In this document: positions 38,176 to 49,046 of the stretch, one piece after another | Numbering within the stretch: position 1 is the first letter of the stretch | How the letters are laid out: every line of letters begins with the position of its first letter | Assembly: GCA_019186945.1 (NCBI GenBank) | Contig: JABAQJ010000001.1 | Coordinates: forward strand, 124,001-188,000 | Source: Gemmatimonadaceae bacterium | GTDB lineage: Bacteria > Gemmatimonadota > Gemmatimonadetes > Gemmatimonadales > Gemmatimonadaceae | DNA: 64,000 nucleotides | Reading direction: 5' to 3' | The notes under the pieces: model-generated | Seen by the model: the letters and a program-made list of their open reading frames with translations, nothing else | Told to the model about the DNA's origin: nothing | Databases searched by the model: none | Position numbers and translations under genes: made by a program

Positions 38176-39234
38176 ATGTCTCAAGCCGATCGACGCGAGC
38201 TTCAACGGGCCATTGAACAGAAGAAGTTCGCCCTCGTCTACTATTTTCACGGCGTGAACGAGCCGATGAAGGACAGCGCGATCGGGAGACTCGTCGATGC
38301 TGCGGTAGATCCTGCCACGCGTGACTTCAATCTGGACTACATCGATGGCAGTGAAGTCACCGGTGAGAGCCTCGGGACTCTGCTCAATACACCGCCCCTC
38401 ATGGTAGAGCGACGCGCGGTGGTTGTGCGCGACGTCCTTGCTCTTCGAAAAGAGGCGCGGCAGGTGCTCGAGCAATACATCGAAACCCCTTCTCCAAGAC
38501 TCGTTCTGGTGCTCTCCGGCGGCGTTGATGTGGCCAAGGACGCGTTGCACGACCGCTTGGTTCGCGAAGCGACATCGATGGCATTCGATGCGCTTGAAGC
38601 GAGGGAGGCGCTGGCGTGGGTTTCCGAGTATGCGCGCGAATCGCTAGGCGTAAGCATTACCAGAGATGCGGCCGACCTGTTGGTGACTGCTACCGAGGGA
38701 GAACCTTTGCAGCTGGTGGCTGAACTGGGGAAGGTCGCGAGCTATTCAGGCGAAAGACAGATTGACCGAGACGCAGTCACGGCTGTCGTCGGTGTGCGTC
38801 ACGGCGAGACACCCGGGGACTTGTTCGATGCAGTGGCTGCGCGCGATGCGATGCGGGCGCTGGCGCTTGTACCGTTCATTCTCCAACAACCGAAAGTGAC
38901 CTTGGTTCAGGTGTTGATGGGTTTGACGACGCAGATGCTGGCGATTGCGTGGGGACGTGCGGTCTGGGAGCGTGGCAGGGCAACTGGCGCGCTTTCCGGG
39001 CAGTTCTACAACCTGCTCCGGGAAACGCGTGCATATCCCGGACGCGCGTGGGGAGATGCCGTTCGCGTATGGATTCGTGCAGTTCCGAGTTGGGACCGGC
39101 ACCAGCTCGACAACGCGCTGGAGGTGCTGCTTCAGGCCGATCGCTCGGCGAAGGAGGGTCGATACTCGTCTGAGGAGCAGCTGTTGAGCGGCGTGGTCCT
39201 GCGCCTGTGCGGGACAGGGGGAGGCACGGCGTGA
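38176..39234 (+). CDS. holA: DNA polymerase III delta subunit
   Basis: 352 residues. It begins with the clamp-loader delta pattern F-A-L-V-Y-Y-F-H-G-V-N-E-P-M-K and continues with L-N-T-P-P-L-M-V-E-R-R-A-V-V-V-R, G-E-P-L-Q-L-V-A-E-L-G-K-V-A and a C-terminal helical domain ending in Q-L-L-S-G-V-V-L-R-L. HolA opens the beta clamp (DnaN) within the clamp loader. Its stop overlaps the GTG of the next gene. Confidence 0.92.
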   Translation: MSQADRRELQRAIEQKKFALVYYFHGVNEPMKDSAIGRLVDAAVDPATRDFNLDYIDGSEVTGESLGTLLNTPPLMVERRAVVVRDVLALRKEARQVLEQYIETPSPRLVLVLSGGVDVAKDALHDRLVREATSMAFDALEAREALAWVSEYARESLGVSITRDAADLLVTATEGEPLQLVAELGKVASYSGERQIDRDAVTAVVGVRHGETPGDLFDAVAARDAMRALALVPFILQQPKVTLVQVLMGLTTQMLAIAWGRAVWERGRATGALSGQFYNLLRETRAYPGRAWGDAVRVWIRAVPSWDRHQLDNALEVLLQADRSAKEGRYSSEEQLLSGVVLRLCGTGGGTA

Positions 39235-40076
39235 AACCGTGCGCAGCCGTTCGCGCCCTGGTTCTGTTGGGGTGTCTCTTGTCGCTCTACCCGTGTGATG
39301 TACCGGCACAGCGCGCTGACTCGGCCGTTGCAAGAATTGCCGGTCTGGTCAGCCGTGGTGACCGGCAAGGAGCCTATGCGGTCGCGGACTCCCTGCTGAC
39401 GGTAACGCCGGTCGATTCCCCAGAGTATCCAGAGGTGCTCTATTGGCGGGCCTTCTCAGCTGCGAATGCAGCTGGAGCTGAGCGAGACTACTTGCGCGTT
39501 GCGATCGAATATCCGTTGTCGCTGCGGGCCGAAGACGCACTTCTTCTGCTGTCTCAACTCGAGTTTGCCCGCGGCGATCGGACGGCAGCTCTGAAGCATC
39601 TCGACAGACTGCTTCGCGATCACCCGACGGGACACAACGCTGGCCGTGCGTCCTTCTGGACGGCGCGGATTGCCTTCGACACGGGTGATACGGCGCGCGC
39701 TTGCCAGGCTCTTGCCGCAGCGCGCGCGAAGCTGCCGGAAACGGACATCGAGACTAGAAACCAGGCTGAGTATTTCGCCCCCCGTTGCAGCCCGCGTTTG
39801 TCGGCTGACGGCTCTCGTCCGGCGCCAGAGTCATCAGTCGTACCCGCGAGCAGCTCGTACAGTCTGCAGGTGGCGGCGTTCAGGACGAGGCGCGAGGCAG
39901 ATGTCCTGATGCGCGGGCTCAAGCGACGTGGGTTTGACGTTCGGGTTACGCACCAGGACTCGTGGTACCGGGTGCGCATAGGTCGTTATGCCACGCATGA
40001 AGCGGCCGCTCAGGCACAGGCGCGGGCACGGGCGTCGAAGGTAACGACGCGCATAGTCGAGGCGGAGAAGCCATGA
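39231..40076 (+). CDS. Exported TPR-like protein with C-terminal SPOR domain
   Basis: 281 residues from the GTG overlapping the holA stop (GTGA). Signal peptide with hydrophobic V-L-L-G-C-L-L-S-L, then helical repeats with A-x-Y-A-V-A-D-S-L-L and A-L-K-H-L-D-R-L-L-R-D-H-P typical of TPR or tol-pal-like segments. The last 75 residues are a SPOR domain, Y-S-L-Q-V-A-A-F-R-T-R-R-E-A-D and W-Y-R-V-R-I-G-R-Y, which binds denuded peptidoglycan. Likely acts in the periplasm at division or envelope sites. It ends overlapping mutS (ATGA). Confidence 0.85.
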   Translation: MKPCAAVRALVLLGCLLSLYPCDVPAQRADSAVARIAGLVSRGDRQGAYAVADSLLTVTPVDSPEYPEVLYWRAFSAANAAGAERDYLRVAIEYPLSLRAEDALLLLSQLEFARGDRTAALKHLDRLLRDHPTGHNAGRASFWTARIAFDTGDTARACQALAAARAKLPETDIETRNQAEYFAPRCSPRLSADGSRPAPESSVVPASSSYSLQVAAFRTRREADVLMRGLKRRGFDVRVTHQDSWYRVRIGRYATHEAAAQAQARARASKVTTRIVEAEKP

Positions 40077-42722: not shown

Positions 42723-43142
42723 ATGCCGAGATCTCTTGCGTTGCTGCTGGCCATGAGCGCGATGGCGTGTTCCGGTGACCGGTCGGTGTCGCGACGGCTG
42801 CGAAGCCGCGAACCGGTGGAGCTGCCGGCGCTGATCACCACCGAGCTACCGTTTCGGTATCCCCCTGGCTTGTACCTTCAAGGCGTTCAGGACGACGTGA
42901 CGCTGCGGTTGTTCATCGACTCGTCGGGCGCGGTTGTCCGCGAGTCCACGCGTATCGAGGAACCATCGCGGTACGCGCTGTTTGACAGCTCAGCCATGGA
43001 GGGTGCGACGCGGCTGTCTTTCCGACCTGCCAGGCAAGGCGAACATCGCTTGGGACATGCGGTCCTGTTCCCGGTGAAGTTCCGCGTGCCAAACGGGCCG
43101 ACTCTTCCTCAGGACACTGCGCAGCGGAGCGAGAAAGAATGA
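42723..43142 (+). CDS. TonB C-terminal-like lipoprotein
   Basis: 139 residues from ATG 42723. Lipobox A-M-A-C (Cys16). The rest, with P-P-G-L-Y-L-Q-G-V-Q-D-D-V-T-L-R-L-F-I-D and S-A-M-E-G-A-T-R-L-S-F-R-P-A-R, resembles the small TonB C-terminal fold (energy-transducer domain), though without the usual proline-rich rod. It may contact outer-membrane receptors or act as a soluble TonB-like domain. Its stop overlaps ddl. Confidence 0.6.
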   Translation: MPRSLALLLAMSAMACSGDRSVSRRLRSREPVELPALITTELPFRYPPGLYLQGVQDDVTLRLFIDSSGAVVRESTRIEEPSRYALFDSSAMEGATRLSFRPARQGEHRLGHAVLFPVKFRVPNGPTLPQDTAQRSEKE

Positions 43143-44128
43143 AGATCGCCGTGCTTATGGGAGGCACATCGGCCGAGCGGGACGTCTCGCTAGCATCGGG
43201 CGTGCGGGTGGCGGAGGCACTTCGGCTGCGCGGGCATGAAGTGATACTGATCGATACAGTCGTGGGGAGACTAGGCCCCACGGAAGAGGCAGCGCTGCTC
43301 GCGGGAGGAGTGCTCAAGTCCGTTCCGCCAGATGTACACACGCTAGCGCGCCTCGATCGCCAGTTACCCACGGAAGTGAGTGCGCTGCCAGACGTCGACG
43401 CGGTCTTTCTCGCGTTGCATGGCGGACGAGGGGAGGATGGAACGGTTCAGGCGTTGCTCGACCTCGCGGGCGTTCCGTATACCGGGAGCGGCCACTTGGC
43501 GAGCGCTCTCGCGATGGACAAGGATCTATCAAAGCGACTCTTCCGGCAGGCGGGTGTTCCGACGCCTGAATGGATGATGTCGCCAGTGACCGCGCGAGCA
43601 GTCGAAGGGGTCTTCGGGTTCCCGTGCGTGGTAAAGCCGAGCAAGCAGGGGTCCACCGTTGGGTTGACTCTCGTGAGGGGGGCGAACGAACTGCCGGCGG
43701 CGCTCGAGCATGCACGCGAGTATGACGACGAGGTCATGGTGGAACAGTTCATTCCCGGCCGCGAACTCACCGTCGGGATTCTTGGCGAGCGCGCGCTGCC
43801 GGTCGGCGAGATCATCCCGGTGCACGAGATTTACGACTACGAATGCAAGTACACACCGGGGATGGCACGCGAGGTATTTCCGGCAGCGCTAGCCGGAGAC
43901 GAGTCGTCGCGAGTTCAGGCTCTGGCCGTGCGAGCTTTTGTCGCACTGAAGCTGCGGGGCTATGCACGAATCGACTTTCGCATGTCGCCGAGCGGTGAGT
44001 TTTTCTGTCTGGAGGCAAACACGTTGCCCGGGATGACTGAGCTTTCGCTCATTCCGCAGGCGGCAGCCGCGGCGCAGATTTCGTTTCCAGATCTTTGCGA
44101 GCGGATCGTGGAGCTCGCACTACCTTGA
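43139..44128 (+). CDS. ddl: D-alanine--D-alanine ligase
   Basis: 329 residues. M-G-G-T-S-A-E-R-D-V-S-L (start signature), F-L-A-L-H-G-G-R-G-E-D-G, D-K-D-L-S-K-R-L-F-R, the ATP-grasp K-P-S-K-Q-G-S-T-V-G, and E-A-N-T-L-P-G-M-T-E-L-S as metal and substrate site. It makes the D-Ala-D-Ala dipeptide for peptidoglycan in the cytoplasm. It is coupled to the TonB-like gene by a 4-bp overlap. Confidence 0.95.
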   Translation: MKIAVLMGGTSAERDVSLASGVRVAEALRLRGHEVILIDTVVGRLGPTEEAALLAGGVLKSVPPDVHTLARLDRQLPTEVSALPDVDAVFLALHGGRGEDGTVQALLDLAGVPYTGSGHLASALAMDKDLSKRLFRQAGVPTPEWMMSPVTARAVEGVFGFPCVVKPSKQGSTVGLTLVRGANELPAALEHAREYDDEVMVEQFIPGRELTVGILGERALPVGEIIPVHEIYDYECKYTPGMAREVFPAALAGDESSRVQALAVRAFVALKLRGYARIDFRMSPSGEFFCLEANTLPGMTELSLIPQAAAAAQISFPDLCERIVELALP

Positions 44129-44141
44129 CCGGACGACACGC

Positions 44142-44801
44142 ATGGGAATGACTCCCATCCTGGCGGCGGCGCTTACGGGCGTGCCAGTGGGAATTCAGAA
44201 GCAGGGCATCTGGTGTGGCTTCCGGCAACTGTTCGTGCGATTCGCTGGAGCGGCGGAAACGGCCCAGATGTACACGGCGGACGCTCTTGCTCGGGAGATG
44301 AATCGGGCCCTTGGTCGCACGCCGATCCACTCGATCTGCATCAGCGGACGTGACGCGTTGGGAAGTACCGAGTTCCTTGTGGCGGCGTTGAAGCAAGTGC
44401 TTCCGGGCCAGCGTGTGATGGCAGATACGGATGGTCAGAGGCCGGAGGCGATCGCCGCGCTGCAGGATTTCATCGACTTGGTGCAAATTACCGTAGAGCT
44501 GCCCTACTCGGCCGTGTCGACCGAGCGCATGCAGGAGACGGTTCGGGCCGCCAATCGCGCTGGGTGTGGGCATGCCGTGGTGATTTCAGGAACCGACGAA
44601 GCGAGTGACGCGGATTACTTGCGGATCGTCGAGCTCGCACACGATGCGAGCACGGCGACGGCGATCGTCATTCATCCCGGACCGGCGGAGGAGCGATCTC
44701 CCCTGGATCGCCGGTGGAGCGTCCTGTTGGAACATGCGATGGCGAAGCACACGGATGTTCGTGTGGCGCTTCGGCTTGGCGGGCCGGCGACGATCCGATA
44801 G
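44142..44801 (+). CDS. QueE-like radical SAM family protein lacking the iron-sulfur cysteines
   Basis: 219 residues. The start aligns with 7-carboxy-7-deazaguanine synthase (QueE): P-V-G-I-Q-K-Q-G-I-W-C-G at the place of S-I-Q-G-E-G-x-x-x-G, then L-F-V-R-F-A-G-A-A-E-T at the place of F-V-R-L-A-G-C-N-L-R-C-x-W-C. None of the three cluster Cys remains. Later C-I-S-G-R-D-A-L-G fits I-T-G-G-E-P-L and M-A-D-T-D-G-Q-R fits the L-E-T-N-G strand. No frame shift restores the cysteines. It thus keeps the fold but cannot hold the 4Fe-4S cluster; a non-catalytic or new role is likely. QueF of the same pathway lies 1.3 kb downstream. Confidence 0.6.
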   Translation: MGMTPILAAALTGVPVGIQKQGIWCGFRQLFVRFAGAAETAQMYTADALAREMNRALGRTPIHSICISGRDALGSTEFLVAALKQVLPGQRVMADTDGQRPEAIAALQDFIDLVQITVELPYSAVSTERMQETVRAANRAGCGHAVVISGTDEASDADYLRIVELAHDASTATAIVIHPGPAEERSPLDRRWSVLLEHAMAKHTDVRVALRLGGPATIR

Positions 44802-44849: not shown

Positions 44850-45785
44850 ATGAGGCCCCAATCGAGTCGCATGTCCTCTCTCATTTCGGACGACGTTGAC
44901 GTTCCGCGCCTAACGCGGGCAGTGCAGTGGTTGATCGCGACCAATTTGGCGATCTACTTTCTGCAACTGACCGTTGTCGGGTCCGGTAACATGCAGGTAG
45001 CGCTGGGGTTCGATGCGGAGCATCTGTCCACCGCGTGGTGGACAGTGCTCACGTACATGTTCGTGCACGGAGGGTTCTGGCATCTTGCCTTGAACATGTA
45101 CACGCTGTTCCTCTTCGGGCCCCGTTTGGAACGTACGTGGAGCGCTGGCGAGTTTGTGCGCTACTACGTTGTGTGCGGGCTCGGCGGGTGGTTGTTGCAT
45201 CTGCTCGTGGCCCGTGAGTCCCTTCTGGTGGGAGCGTCCGCGGCCGTGCTGGGGGTGATGCTTGCCTACGCGACGCGATGGCCGCAGGACGAGGTGTATC
45301 TGTTCGGCGTGATGCCACTCAAGGTCAAGTGGCTAGTGGGGTTGCTGGTGACGGTCAATCTCGTTGGGGGGATGGCGACTGCGGATCAGGGCGGGGGCGT
45401 GGCGTATCTGGCGCACCTGGGTGGGCTGGCTGCGGGGTGGATCTACCTTCGATCGTCGTCCTCGATGGGAATAGATCGACTGCGGCAGCGCATTTCCCAG
45501 GTGCCAGACGTGCCGGATGAGACACCGCGTGCCATCCCGCGTTCGTTACCACGAACCCGCGAGAAAGCGAACGAGATCGACGATGTCATCAGCCGTAGCC
45601 ACGCCGCAACGACGCGCCGTGCGATCGCTACGCCGCCCCCAGGTGGAGCGCGCTCCGGTCGGCGAGACACCAGCGAGCTGGATGTCGTGCTGGACAAGAT
45701 CTCCCAGGGAGGGCTGGAGAGCCTCACGACTGAGGAGCGCAAACTGCTCGAGGAGATGTCGAAGGAGTTCCGACAGAAGGAGTAG
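44850..45785 (+). CDS. Rhomboid family intramembrane serine protease
   Basis: 311 residues (ATG 44871 is an alternative start). Six hydrophobic helices; L-T-Y-M-F-V-H-G-G-F-W-H-L-A-L-N-M is the usual second-helix motif, the catalytic Ser is in G-A-S-A-A-V-L-G and the His in A-Y-L-A-H-L-G-G. A soluble tail of about 110 residues ends in L-D-V-V-L-D-K-I-S-Q-G-G-L-E-S-L-T, the small C-terminal domain often attached to bacterial rhomboids of this type. It cleaves membrane-spanning substrates; none can be named. Confidence 0.92.
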   Translation: MRPQSSRMSSLISDDVDVPRLTRAVQWLIATNLAIYFLQLTVVGSGNMQVALGFDAEHLSTAWWTVLTYMFVHGGFWHLALNMYTLFLFGPRLERTWSAGEFVRYYVVCGLGGWLLHLLVARESLLVGASAAVLGVMLAYATRWPQDEVYLFGVMPLKVKWLVGLLVTVNLVGGMATADQGGGVAYLAHLGGLAAGWIYLRSSSSMGIDRLRQRISQVPDVPDETPRAIPRSLPRTREKANEIDDVISRSHAATTRRAIATPPPGGARSGRRDTSELDVVLDKISQGGLESLTTEERKLLEEMSKEFRQKE

Positions 45786-46103
45786 ATCCCCGCAGTCAGC
45801 GGCTGATCTTCTCTGCGGCCGTGCGGCTGTGGCGCGCAATCCCGGCAGAGGTTTGCGGGACGTCGTGGACGAGTCGACCGAAAAAAAGAGCCCCCCGGCT
45901 GTACCGGGGGGCGAGTGCCGCCACGCCGTTCTCGCGGCGGCATTGGCCGGCGCAATGCGCCTGCCTAGAGCAAGGTACGACCCCGTTCATCGGCTGTCCA
46001 TACTCGGCATGCCGAACGGGAACTTGTCTGCTGTCTCATTTTCAAACGCATGGTTCATGCCGGGCGACTGGCGCTGGCCAAGGTCGGGAGTACATCCTAC
46101 GCG
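45786..46103. other. Non-coding interval of 318 bp before queF
   Basis: No convincing plus-strand gene is present. On the minus strand a 23-codon frame (45987-46058) and two hairpins lie upstream of a minus-strand terminator at 45880-45912, so a short antisense transcript is possible. The longer queF start at 46050 would shorten the gap. Confidence 0.4.
45880..45912 (-). terminator. Rho-independent terminator facing the minus strand, no clear gene
   Basis: A 9-bp G/C-rich stem (GCCCCCCGG at 45890-45898 and its complement at 45904-45912) is followed on the minus strand by CTCTTTTTTTCGG. The T-run is on the minus side only, so it ends a leftward transcript. Confidence 0.75.
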
Positions 46104-46517
46104 ATGCCCCGTCCCGACTTGATCGAGAGCTTCCCGAACCCCTATCCGGAGCGCGACTACGAGATCCACATGACGTGTCCGGAGTTCACGTCGCTCTGCC
46201 CTCTTGGAGGAGTCGAGAGTGACGCAACCGAGTTGGCGTTGCTGCAAGGGGGGGCTCCGGACTTCGCGACCATCGCGATCACATATGTGCCGGCGGAGCG
46301 GTGCGTTGAGCTAAAGAGCCTCAAGTTGTACCTCTGGAGTTTTCGGAACGACGGTATCTTCTACGAGCGCGCGGTGAACCGGATCCTGGACGATCTGACG
46401 GCGTGTATATTGCCGCGTTGGATGCGCGTAGTAGGAGATTTCAACGTCCGCGGCGGGATCAAGTCAGTCATCCGCTGCGAGTCCGGCTCTCATCCGGCCG
46501 GTCTCGGGTCGCGTTAG
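46104..46517 (+). CDS. queF: 7-cyano-7-deazaguanine (preQ0) reductase QueF
   Basis: 137 residues from ATG 46104, which gives the usual short lead before F-P-N-P-Y-P-E-R-D-Y-E-I; ATG 46050 would add 18 residues with no support. The catalytic Cys is in P-E-F-T-S-L-C-P. G-A-P-D-F-A-T-I, V-E-L-K-S-L-K-L-Y-L-W-S-F-R-N and V-R-G-G-I are conserved. Between Cys-Pro and G-A-P-D-F there are about 15 extra residues (L-G-G-V-E-S-D-A-T-E-L-A-L-L-Q) where most QueF have two to three. It reduces preQ0 to preQ1 with NADPH in queuosine synthesis. Confidence 0.93.
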   Translation: MPRPDLIESFPNPYPERDYEIHMTCPEFTSLCPLGGVESDATELALLQGGAPDFATIAITYVPAERCVELKSLKLYLWSFRNDGIFYERAVNRILDDLTACILPRWMRVVGDFNVRGGIKSVIRCESGSHPAGLGSR

Positions 46518-46654: not shown

Positions 46655-46727
<73 letters not shown>

Positions 46728-46836: not shown

Positions 46837-47172
46837 ATGCCACGAGAACAGAACCGGAAGTGACGCACCTACCCGCCGGAGTTTCGGCAGCAGTTGATTG
46901 CGCTTGTGCGAGCGGGGCGCACACCGGAAGAACTGTCCCGCGAGTGTGAACCGTCTGGCCAGACGATTCGCAACTGGGTACAGCAAGCGGATCGCGATCG
47001 AGGAAGTCGCACCGATGGCCTGACGAGTGCCGAGCGCGCGGAGTTGGCGCAGCTCCGCAAGGAGAACCGACGGCTCAAGGTGGAGCGCGACATCCTCTCA
47101 AGAGCGGCGGCCTGGTTCGCACGGGAGACCGGCACGATTCCGAATCCGTCCAACGGGTCTTCGGGTTCGTGA
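46837..47172 (+). pseudogene. IS3-family transposase OrfA, broken by an early stop
   Basis: Starting at ATG 46837 the frame reads M-P-R-E-Q-N-R-K and then a TGA (46861-46863), followed in frame by R-T-Y-P-P-E-F-R-Q-Q-L. The expected residue at the stop is Arg, so a CGA to TGA change is likely. The rest is a normal OrfA: helix-turn-helix P-E-E-L-S-R-E-C-E-P-S-G-Q-T-I-R-N-W and a leucine-zipper part L-R-K-E-N-R-R-L-K-V-E-R-D-I-L. A TTG at 46894 could give a shortened product. Confidence 0.8.
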
Positions 47173-47931
47173 GGGATCACCAGGCCGTGTTCCCGGTCGC
47201 GACGATGTGTCGTGTCCTCAAGGTCTCTCCGAGTGGATTCTATGCGTGGCGGCAGCGCGGCTTGTCGGCGCGGGCGGTTCGCGACGTCACGCTCACGGCG
47301 CACATCACGCGCTTTCACACGCGGAGTGATGGGACGTACGGGGCCCCGCGGATTCTCCGGGATCTGCGAGACATCCACGAACGCGTCGGCCAGAAACGCG
47401 TGGCCCGGTTGCTGCGCGACGCGGGGCTGCGCGGGGTCAGCCGGCGGCGCTGGATCACCACCACGGACCGCGGGCCGGTGGCGCAGGCCGTCCCGGACCT
47501 GGTCCAGCGGGAGTTCGTGGCGGCAGCGCCGAATCAACTCTGGGTCGCCGACATCACCTGCGTCCCGACGTGGGCCGGGTTCCTGTTCCAGGCCGTGGTG
47601 CTCGATGCGTTCAGTCGACGCATCGTGGGATGGGCGATGGCCACGCATCTCCGGACCGAGCTCGTGCTCTCGGCGCTGGAGATGGCCCGCGTGCAGCGTC
47701 GACCGACCGGGGTAATTCATCATTCCGACCACGGCTCGCAGTACACGTCCATCGCGTTCGGTGAGCGCTGCGACGTCCTCGGCGTGCGCCCCTCGCGCGG
47801 GACCGTGGGCGACTGCTACGACAACGCACTCTGCGAGAGCTTCTTCGCCACGCTCGAGTGCGAGCTGCTGGATCGCCGCACGTTTCACTCGCATGCGGAG
47901 GCGCGGGCCGCCATCTTCCGTTTCATCGTGG
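47169..47931 (+). pseudogene. IS3-family transposase OrfB, C-terminally truncated
   Basis: The frame runs on to 49046 into the next gene, but the transposase ends near residue 254. The HTH_21 part and integrase core are present with the DDE residues: V-A-D-I-T (first Asp), H-S-D-H-G-S-Q-Y (second Asp) and N-A-L-C-E-S-F (Glu). After F-R-F-I-V-E the usual W-Y-N-x2-R-x-H-S-x-L-G-Y end is replaced by the repeated left-end sequence at 47929. The frame is open upstream (V-F-G-F-V-R-D-H), as needed for programmed frameshifting from orfA, whose stop it overlaps. Confidence 0.82.
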
Positions 47932-48104
47932 AGTTGACCCGGTTTGGTGGACACCTGGGTCAGGCGACCTTCAGGATCTCGTGTTCTTACTGCACGGGAC
48001 TGCGGCAGCCTAACGACAAATGCCGACGGCGGCGGTTGTACCGGACCCCGAAGTCGTTGGCTGTCCGGCCGGATCTCACCCCGGGACTCAGGAGACATGA
48101 ACGC

Positions 48105-49046
48105 ATGTCGCAGGTGGCGATCGTGGGTGGCGGTATCATTGGCAGTTCGTGGGCGCTCGTTTTCGCGAGAGCCGGCCACGACGTTCGCGTGTATGCCCGC
48201 CACGAAGAGGTCCGCGCGACGCTGATTGACCGTGTACGCACCGCTGCCGAACGGTCGCACGCTGTCGCGTCCGACGTGTCGGTGGACGAGACCGTCAGGC
48301 GCATCACGATGGCCACGGACCTTGCCGACGCACTCGATGGTGCGTCGTGGATGCAGGAGTCGCTGGAGGAGCGGATCGAAGTAAAGGCGGATCTGTTCGC
48401 TCGCGCCGATCGCCTCGCGGCGCCGGAGACAATCCTCGCCAGTTCCACCTCCAGTATCGGGGCATCGCGATTCACGGAGAACCTGAGAGGGCGCGGGCGA
48501 TGCATCGTGGCGCATCCCGCCACGCCTCCGCACCTGATTCCAGCGGTGGAAGTAGTGCCGGCACCGTGGACGACGCCGGGCGTGGTCGATCGCGCATTTG
48601 CAACGATGACTGCAATCGGCCAGGTGCCGGTGCTGGTGCGTCGCGAGCAACCGGGTTTCGTCCTCAATCGCCTGCAGGGGGCGTTGCTGATCGAAATGTT
48701 CCGCGCGATCACCGACGGTGTGATGACGCCGGACGACGTCGATAAGCTGATCAGAGATGGGTTCGGATTGCGCTGGGCCTTTCTCGGTCCCCTGGAGGGC
48801 GTGGACCTCAACGCGCCCGGCGGTATCGCCGACTATTTGTCCCGGTATGGCTTCATTTTCGACCAGATGGTGCGCGAGCGCGGTGGCTCCAGCGACGTAG
48901 TGACGTCGGAGCTGACGGCCGTGCTGCACGCGGCGATGCGAGATCGCCTGCCACTGGAATCGCTTCCCGATCGGATTGCGTGGCGCGATCAGCGCATGGC
49001 CGATCTGCGCCGACTGCGACAATTGAAGGGGCCGGATAGTCGCTGA
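48105..49046 (+). CDS. 3-hydroxyacyl-CoA dehydrogenase family protein
   Basis: 313 residues from ATG 48105, with CAGGAG about 12 bp upstream; the long frame that joins it to the transposase is accidental. The N-terminal Rossmann motif V-A-I-V-G-G-G-I-I-G-S-S-W-A (residues 4-17), the conserved S-S-T-S-S-I at about 112 and A-H-P-A-T-P-P-H with the catalytic His, and a C-terminal helical domain with F-V-L-N-R-L-Q-G-A place it with the lambda-crystallin/L-gulonate 3-dehydrogenase or carnitine dehydrogenase group. NAD is the likely cofactor; the substrate is uncertain. Confidence 0.88.
   Translation: MSQVAIVGGGIIGSSWALVFARAGHDVRVYARHEEVRATLIDRVRTAAERSHAVASDVSVDETVRRITMATDLADALDGASWMQESLEERIEVKADLFARADRLAAPETILASSTSSIGASRFTENLRGRGRCIVAHPATPPHLIPAVEVVPAPWTTPGVVDRAFATMTAIGQVPVLVRREQPGFVLNRLQGALLIEMFRAITDGVMTPDDVDKLIRDGFGLRWAFLGPLEGVDLNAPGGIADYLSRYGFIFDQMVRERGGSSDVVTSELTAVLHAAMRDRLPLESLPDRIAWRDQRMADLRRLRQLKGPDSR

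Follow-up and report, generated by a model that had tools for sequence, protein, structure and literature searches.

Radical SAM proteins make up an enzyme superfamily that ranks among the largest, and it is their iron-sulfur cluster that defines them. In QueE, the 7-carboxy-7-deazaguanine synthase, of E. coli, Q13, E15 and R27 contact the substrate, C31, C35 and C38 are the cluster ligands and T40 is part of the Mg site (PMC11142719), and R27 of QueE binds the carboxylate of CPH4 by a salt bridge (PMC5347944). E. coli QueE also acts as a regulator of cell division: the R27A variant is dead for queuosine and yet still causes filamentation, which makes the division role independent of biosynthesis, and filamentation is lost in the C31A and C35A variants (PMC11142719). 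A precedent for deazaguanine-pathway folds in other roles is the repurposing of the QueC family as QatC and Cap9 (PMC13329287), although these belong to a different enzyme family from the one described here and work in defence systems. A few text searches of open-access papers turned up no account of a comparable radical SAM family that lacks its cluster.

The stretch of Gemmatimonadaceae DNA analyzed here (the window, 64,000 nucleotides of contig JABAQJ010000001.1) contains an intact gene for a candidate of this kind. The features discussed below are the following, in window coordinates:

43139..44128, plus strand: ddl, D-alanine-D-alanine ligase, ending 13 nt before the gene under study
44142..44801, plus strand: intact ORF of 219 aa with ATG start, radical-SAM-like protein, cysteine-less at the cluster site (label pQueE)
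44163..44249, plus strand: hairpin at the N-terminus plus strand 1 of the barrel, carrying the QueE-like block Q..G...G...FVRFAG
44196..44198, plus strand: Q19, aligned with the substrate-contact residue Q13 of E. coli QueE
44238..44240, plus strand: R33, aligned with the substrate-contact residue R27 of E. coli QueE
44250..44273, plus strand: AAETAQMY in place of the CxxxCxxC cluster loop; A38-E39-T40-A41 and Y44 do not vary within the family
44346..44354, plus strand: invariant GRD closing strand 2 and replacing the radical-SAM GGE(P) motif
44424..44444, plus strand: DTDGQRP closing strand 3, with D97, R100 and P101 invariant
44673..44714, plus strand: HP closing strand 6 and a DRR motif ahead of the last helix, with P179 and R191 invariant and H178, D189 and R190 nearly so
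44796..44798, plus strand: C-terminal arginine R219, the invariant final residue in a 50-member alignment
44850..45785, plus strand: rhomboid-family membrane protein with C-terminal DUF6576, the next gene in nearly all relatives
46050..46517, plus strand: queF (preQ1 synthase, QueF-II type; E 2e-46 with the QueF-II model), a conserved neighbor that is also found without pQueE

The original prediction described the protein as an intact QueE-like sequence with the QueE motifs in order and all three cluster cysteines missing. The motif run reads GIQKQGIWCGFRQLFVRFAG-AAETAQMY ... SICISGRDALG ... VMADTDGQRP, so that SGRDALG and DTDG are present as described; the first motif, however, is GIQKQG and not SIQGEG. 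Residues 31-44 are F-V-R-F-A-G-A-A-E-T-A-Q-M-Y, which places A, A and Y in the CxxxCxxC columns 37, 41 and 44, and the three cysteines that the window protein does contain are all located away from these columns. The loss is common to the whole family: in 50 aligned members column 37 is occupied by E (42), P (5) or A (3), columns 41 and 44 are A and Y throughout (50/50 each), and the number of cysteines per member is 0-3. This conservation across genomes excludes a sequencing error or a frameshift as the source of the missing cysteines. As the cluster cysteines are lost in every member, we assume that the family has a function other than the usual radical chemistry.

With the E. coli QueE positions placed by what we take to be its sequence, the ungapped alignment reveals that the equivalents of Q13 and R27 are kept (Q19 in 50/50 and R33 in 49/50 members), whereas E15, T40 and all cluster cysteines are not. 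The presence of GRD instead of GGEP makes ordinary SAM binding and radical formation very unlikely. Invariant in all 50 members are, among others, Q19, G22, W24, G26, R28, Q29, F31, F34, E39, T40, A41, Y44, H63, S64, G69, R70, D71, D97, R100, P101, P179, R191, H203 and R219, and the family has nine near-invariant arginines. These invariant charged residues, the arginines included, suggest an anionic ligand. Conservation at the C-terminal strand ends is mildly raised but not significantly so (32 of 213 circular shifts), so that the case for an active site is built on the identity of the conserved residues and not on statistics.

The gene is embedded in a tight string of genes. Nearly all relatives whose contigs extend far enough show the same order of ddl, pQueE, rhomboid gene and queF, and the gap between ddl and pQueE is only -4 to +38 nt across 29 loci, many of them overlapping, which suggests translational coupling with ddl. 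In relatives without pQueE, ddl is mostly followed directly by the rhomboid gene, with queF next in several of them. A TPR and SPOR-domain protein, predicted to bind peptidoglycan, is encoded in the same string directly upstream of mutS (window 39207-40076). At the other end, a tRNA-Phe (gaa) gene (window 46655-46727) lies between queF and an insertion element, a pair of IS3-type transposase ORFs with HTH_Tnp_1 in the first and rve in the second (window 46894-49046). The second ORF of this pair continues in frame into a 3-hydroxyacyl-CoA dehydrogenase to form a 625-aa ORF, probably because a transposase located before the dehydrogenase gene lost its stop codon.

The tight linkage to ddl and the SPOR-domain protein upstream might be taken to indicate that pQueE regulates cell-wall synthesis or division without catalysis, through protein-protein contacts with Ddl or the divisome, in the manner of moonlighting E. 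coli QueE. Both would share a QueE-type scaffold, the division role of the E. coli protein is separable from its catalysis, and pQueE can be lost, as regulators can. E. coli QueE has, however, kept its cysteines and its enzyme activity, and the loss of the division effect in C31A and C35A means that a protein without these cysteines is not simply analogous. The many invariant polar residues look more like those of a ligand-binding site than like those of a surface, and operon position alone is a weak argument. Therefore, we regard such a regulator as unlikely, though worth keeping in mind.

A different partner is offered by queF, which starts ~1.25 kb downstream, two genes away, and from which a role in deazaguanine metabolism had been deduced. 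According to this idea pQueE would act in queuosine (preQ0/preQ1) synthesis as a regulator or partner and bind an intermediate such as CPH4 or preQ0, and the retention of Q19 and R33 fits such a ligand. The genome does encode a separate, canonical QueE of the Cx14CxxC type and 60% identical to the B. multivorans enzyme (G000:C2:456981-457604). It is part of a queC-queE-queD-type (PTPS) cluster (G000:C2:456628-458287, within L104) away from pQueE, and thus a replacement of the genome's QueE by pQueE is ruled out. Of the 17 carriers in a first survey of 59 relatives, 15 have a canonical QueE, and across these relatives QueE and QueC co-occur exactly (44 genomes with both). Many Gemmatimonadaceae, on the other hand, have QueE and no pQueE, the ddl-rhomboid-queF adjacency exists without it, and the equivalents of QueE E15 and T40 are not kept. 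Two carriers lack both QueE and QueC, namely G027 (77% complete) and G033 (rated 100% complete, 280 contigs). The latter, a MAG, has no detectable QueC or QueE, no QueF-II above the cut-off and only a more distant PTPS, with Tgt retained, which argues against an obligate link of pQueE to preQ0 synthesis, although missing contigs might account for these absences. The deazaguanine role proposed from queF is thus not supported; any link to this pathway appears weak, and a queuosine regulator seems to us improbable.

To which radical SAM proteins, if any, the family is related is indicated by weak matches, and E-values near the threshold were weighed against controls. The only usable database match of the window protein is a sub-threshold hit to PF04055 Radical_SAM (E 1.7e-5, 25.5 bits against a gathering cut-off of 29.5), a model on which even the canonical QueEs from four genomes used for comparison reach just 29-32 bits; at E <= 1 it also matches 26/50 members, with Fer4_12 at 5/50 and NrdG2 at 7/50. 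NCBIfam models gave zero matches to the window protein, and no family model reached its curated cut-off. When profiles were compared with those of two QueE types and of ten further radical SAM groups drawn from four genomes, mixed QueE was clearly best (P 2.9e-5; the two types 4.9e-4 and 6e-3), followed by 0.031 for the best of the ten. The match runs through an ungapped block aligned with LQGEGxxAGRPAVFCRFAG, in which the family is missing the cluster C. Against the QueE models themselves the best members reached E 0.071 (TIGR04508) and E 0.19 (TIGR03365), one member each, and a search of PDB sequences found nothing with the single sequence and no QueE with profiles.

The structural prediction agrees with the expectation of a radical SAM barrel retained without its cluster. 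An AlphaFold model built on the family's own alignment of 17 sequences (mean pLDDT 90.3, pTM 0.87) consists of six strand-helix units plus a hairpin at the N-terminus, a predicted radical-SAM-type (beta-alpha)6 partial barrel. The highest TM-scores in the PDB were obtained with NifB, lipoyl synthase and viperin (TMq 0.55-0.61, by query length), compared with 0.35-0.47 at similar E-values for other TIM barrels such as KDO8P synthase and dehydroquinase. A viral fold library yielded seven matches at E <= 0.001, two unnamed and five named as PflA-, NrdG-, two QueE-like and radical SAM proteins; the best was a PflA-type protein (TMq 0.70), and the phage QueE-like models reached 0.64-0.65. Solved QueEs were not among the top 50 PDB matches. 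As a control, the model of the genome's canonical QueE (pLDDT 82.8) retrieved B. multivorans QueE 4njg with E 7e-25 and E. coli QueE with 8e-9, which shows that the library includes QueE and that pQueE is not especially QueE-like.

Taken as a whole, pQueE resembles QueE (TIGR04508, TIGR04349, TIGR03365; PDB 4njg, 6nhl) in its length of ~210-220 aa, in the ungapped block Q..G...G...F.RF.G, in the order of a GGE/GRD motif followed by a DT[ND]G-like one and in the GIR/GLR ending of many local QueEs and family members. It differs by the absence of the cluster cysteines, by GRD in place of GGEP, by the lost E15 and T40 equivalents, by scores below the QueE model cut-offs, by having no link to queC or queD and by helices that are absent from the QueE model of this genome, among them one between strands 4 and 5. 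NrdG and the PflA activases carry an N-terminal motif of the DGPG type. The resemblance to them consists of the PflA-type structural match and the weak contacts of NrdG2, and they are unlike pQueE in that the latter has no cluster motif and a QueE-like N-terminus. Weighing QueE as the best profile on one side and the weak NrdG2, Fer4_12 and MetH matches on the other, we place the family in the QueE/NrdG/PflA neighborhood; the proposed QueE identity has the profile comparison in its favor and the QueE models and the solved structures against it, and descent from QueE itself is likely but unproven.

The MetH match just mentioned recurs with the pterin domain of this protein, methionine synthase, over ~100 residues (48-149, sharing GRD...PVMxD) at E 0.04-0.06, and one member matches MtrH at E 0.001. 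These matches would weakly point to another small TIM-barrel family that is not radical SAM, for instance a pterin-binding methyltransferase-like one, with QueE-like motifs arisen by convergence, and the missing solved QueEs among the top fold matches would agree with it. The MetH matches stem from one group of close sequences, however, the top TM-scores in both fold libraries belong to radical SAM proteins, half of the members match Radical_SAM, and a hairpin with a six-stranded barrel is not a (beta-alpha)8 fold. We consider such an origin quite improbable.

The family is conserved in the Gemmatimonadaceae and apparently undescribed. In the survey of 59 relatives by protein search all 17 carriers belonged to this family of bacteria, profile searches recovered the gene in 43/298 and, with wider sampling, 60/395 genomes of the phylum (one of them a remnant), and real cases were confined to Gemmatimonadaceae. 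Three weak extra matches in one other genus (E ~0.01), from a looser search for intermediates in the phylum, were rejected as chance because one examined in detail and a second inspected by eye look like shikimate kinases. A scan of named genomes seeded with one exact peptide pattern, which diverged relatives outside could escape, found 54 loci, all but one titled Gemmatimonadota, Gemmatimonadetes or Gemmatimonas and the remaining one 'bacterium'. Comparison with PHROGs gave no convincing match for the family, and PADLOC models matched weakly at best (E 3e-4 in 4/50 members). In a ddl tree of modest support the early-branching Gemmatimonadaceae include carriers and ~7 changes are required, a pattern that an early gain followed by several losses would fit; in G115, where ddl is missing as well, the lack of the gene probably reflects an assembly gap. 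In G303 (L111 2565-2777) the gene has shrunk in frame to a 91-aa ORF that joins the N-terminal part to the last 27 residues, with the middle missing. The rhomboid protein of the same locus reads GAAA, compared with GASA in the window, at the position of the probable catalytic serine.

The gene is under purifying selection: dN/dS of close family pairs is mostly 0.03-0.15 and at most 0.2, distant pairs being uninformative due to synonymous sites near saturation. A decaying pseudogene or functionless frame, for which the repeated losses and the in-frame remnant could be cited, has next to no probability and is refuted for the family by the dozens of genomes that carry an intact copy and by dN/dS values far below 1.

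The best explanation, to which we give an even chance, is a neofunctionalised protein with a cluster-less radical SAM fold, a former active site that now accommodates a small anionic ligand and a place in a cell-wall operon. It would probably have originated in the QueE/NrdG/PflA branch and been repurposed in the ancestor of the Gemmatimonadaceae. The [4Fe-4S]-SAM chemistry would have been permanently lost with the barrel retained, the cluster loop turning into the invariant AETAxxY segment and the SAM-binding GGEP into GRD(P/A), and many arginines as well as D97, H178 and Y44 would have become fixed. The ligand of the old active site may be a carboxylated pterin or a nucleotide-like compound, which we propose because Q19 and R33 align with the QueE substrate contacts. 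The protein could then be a non-radical enzyme or a sensor, presumably co-expressed with Ddl. The more far-reaching reading, in which the new catalytic or sensory function of this family without Fe-S/SAM chemistry serves cell-wall synthesis through its coupling to Ddl, seems to us less likely than not.

If the best explanation is true, a vertically kept lineage that has no cluster and still has the barrel would show that the radical SAM fold is reusable without Fe-S. With the canonical QueE of the same genome as an internal control, the family may be a clean system in which to ask about such fold reuse.
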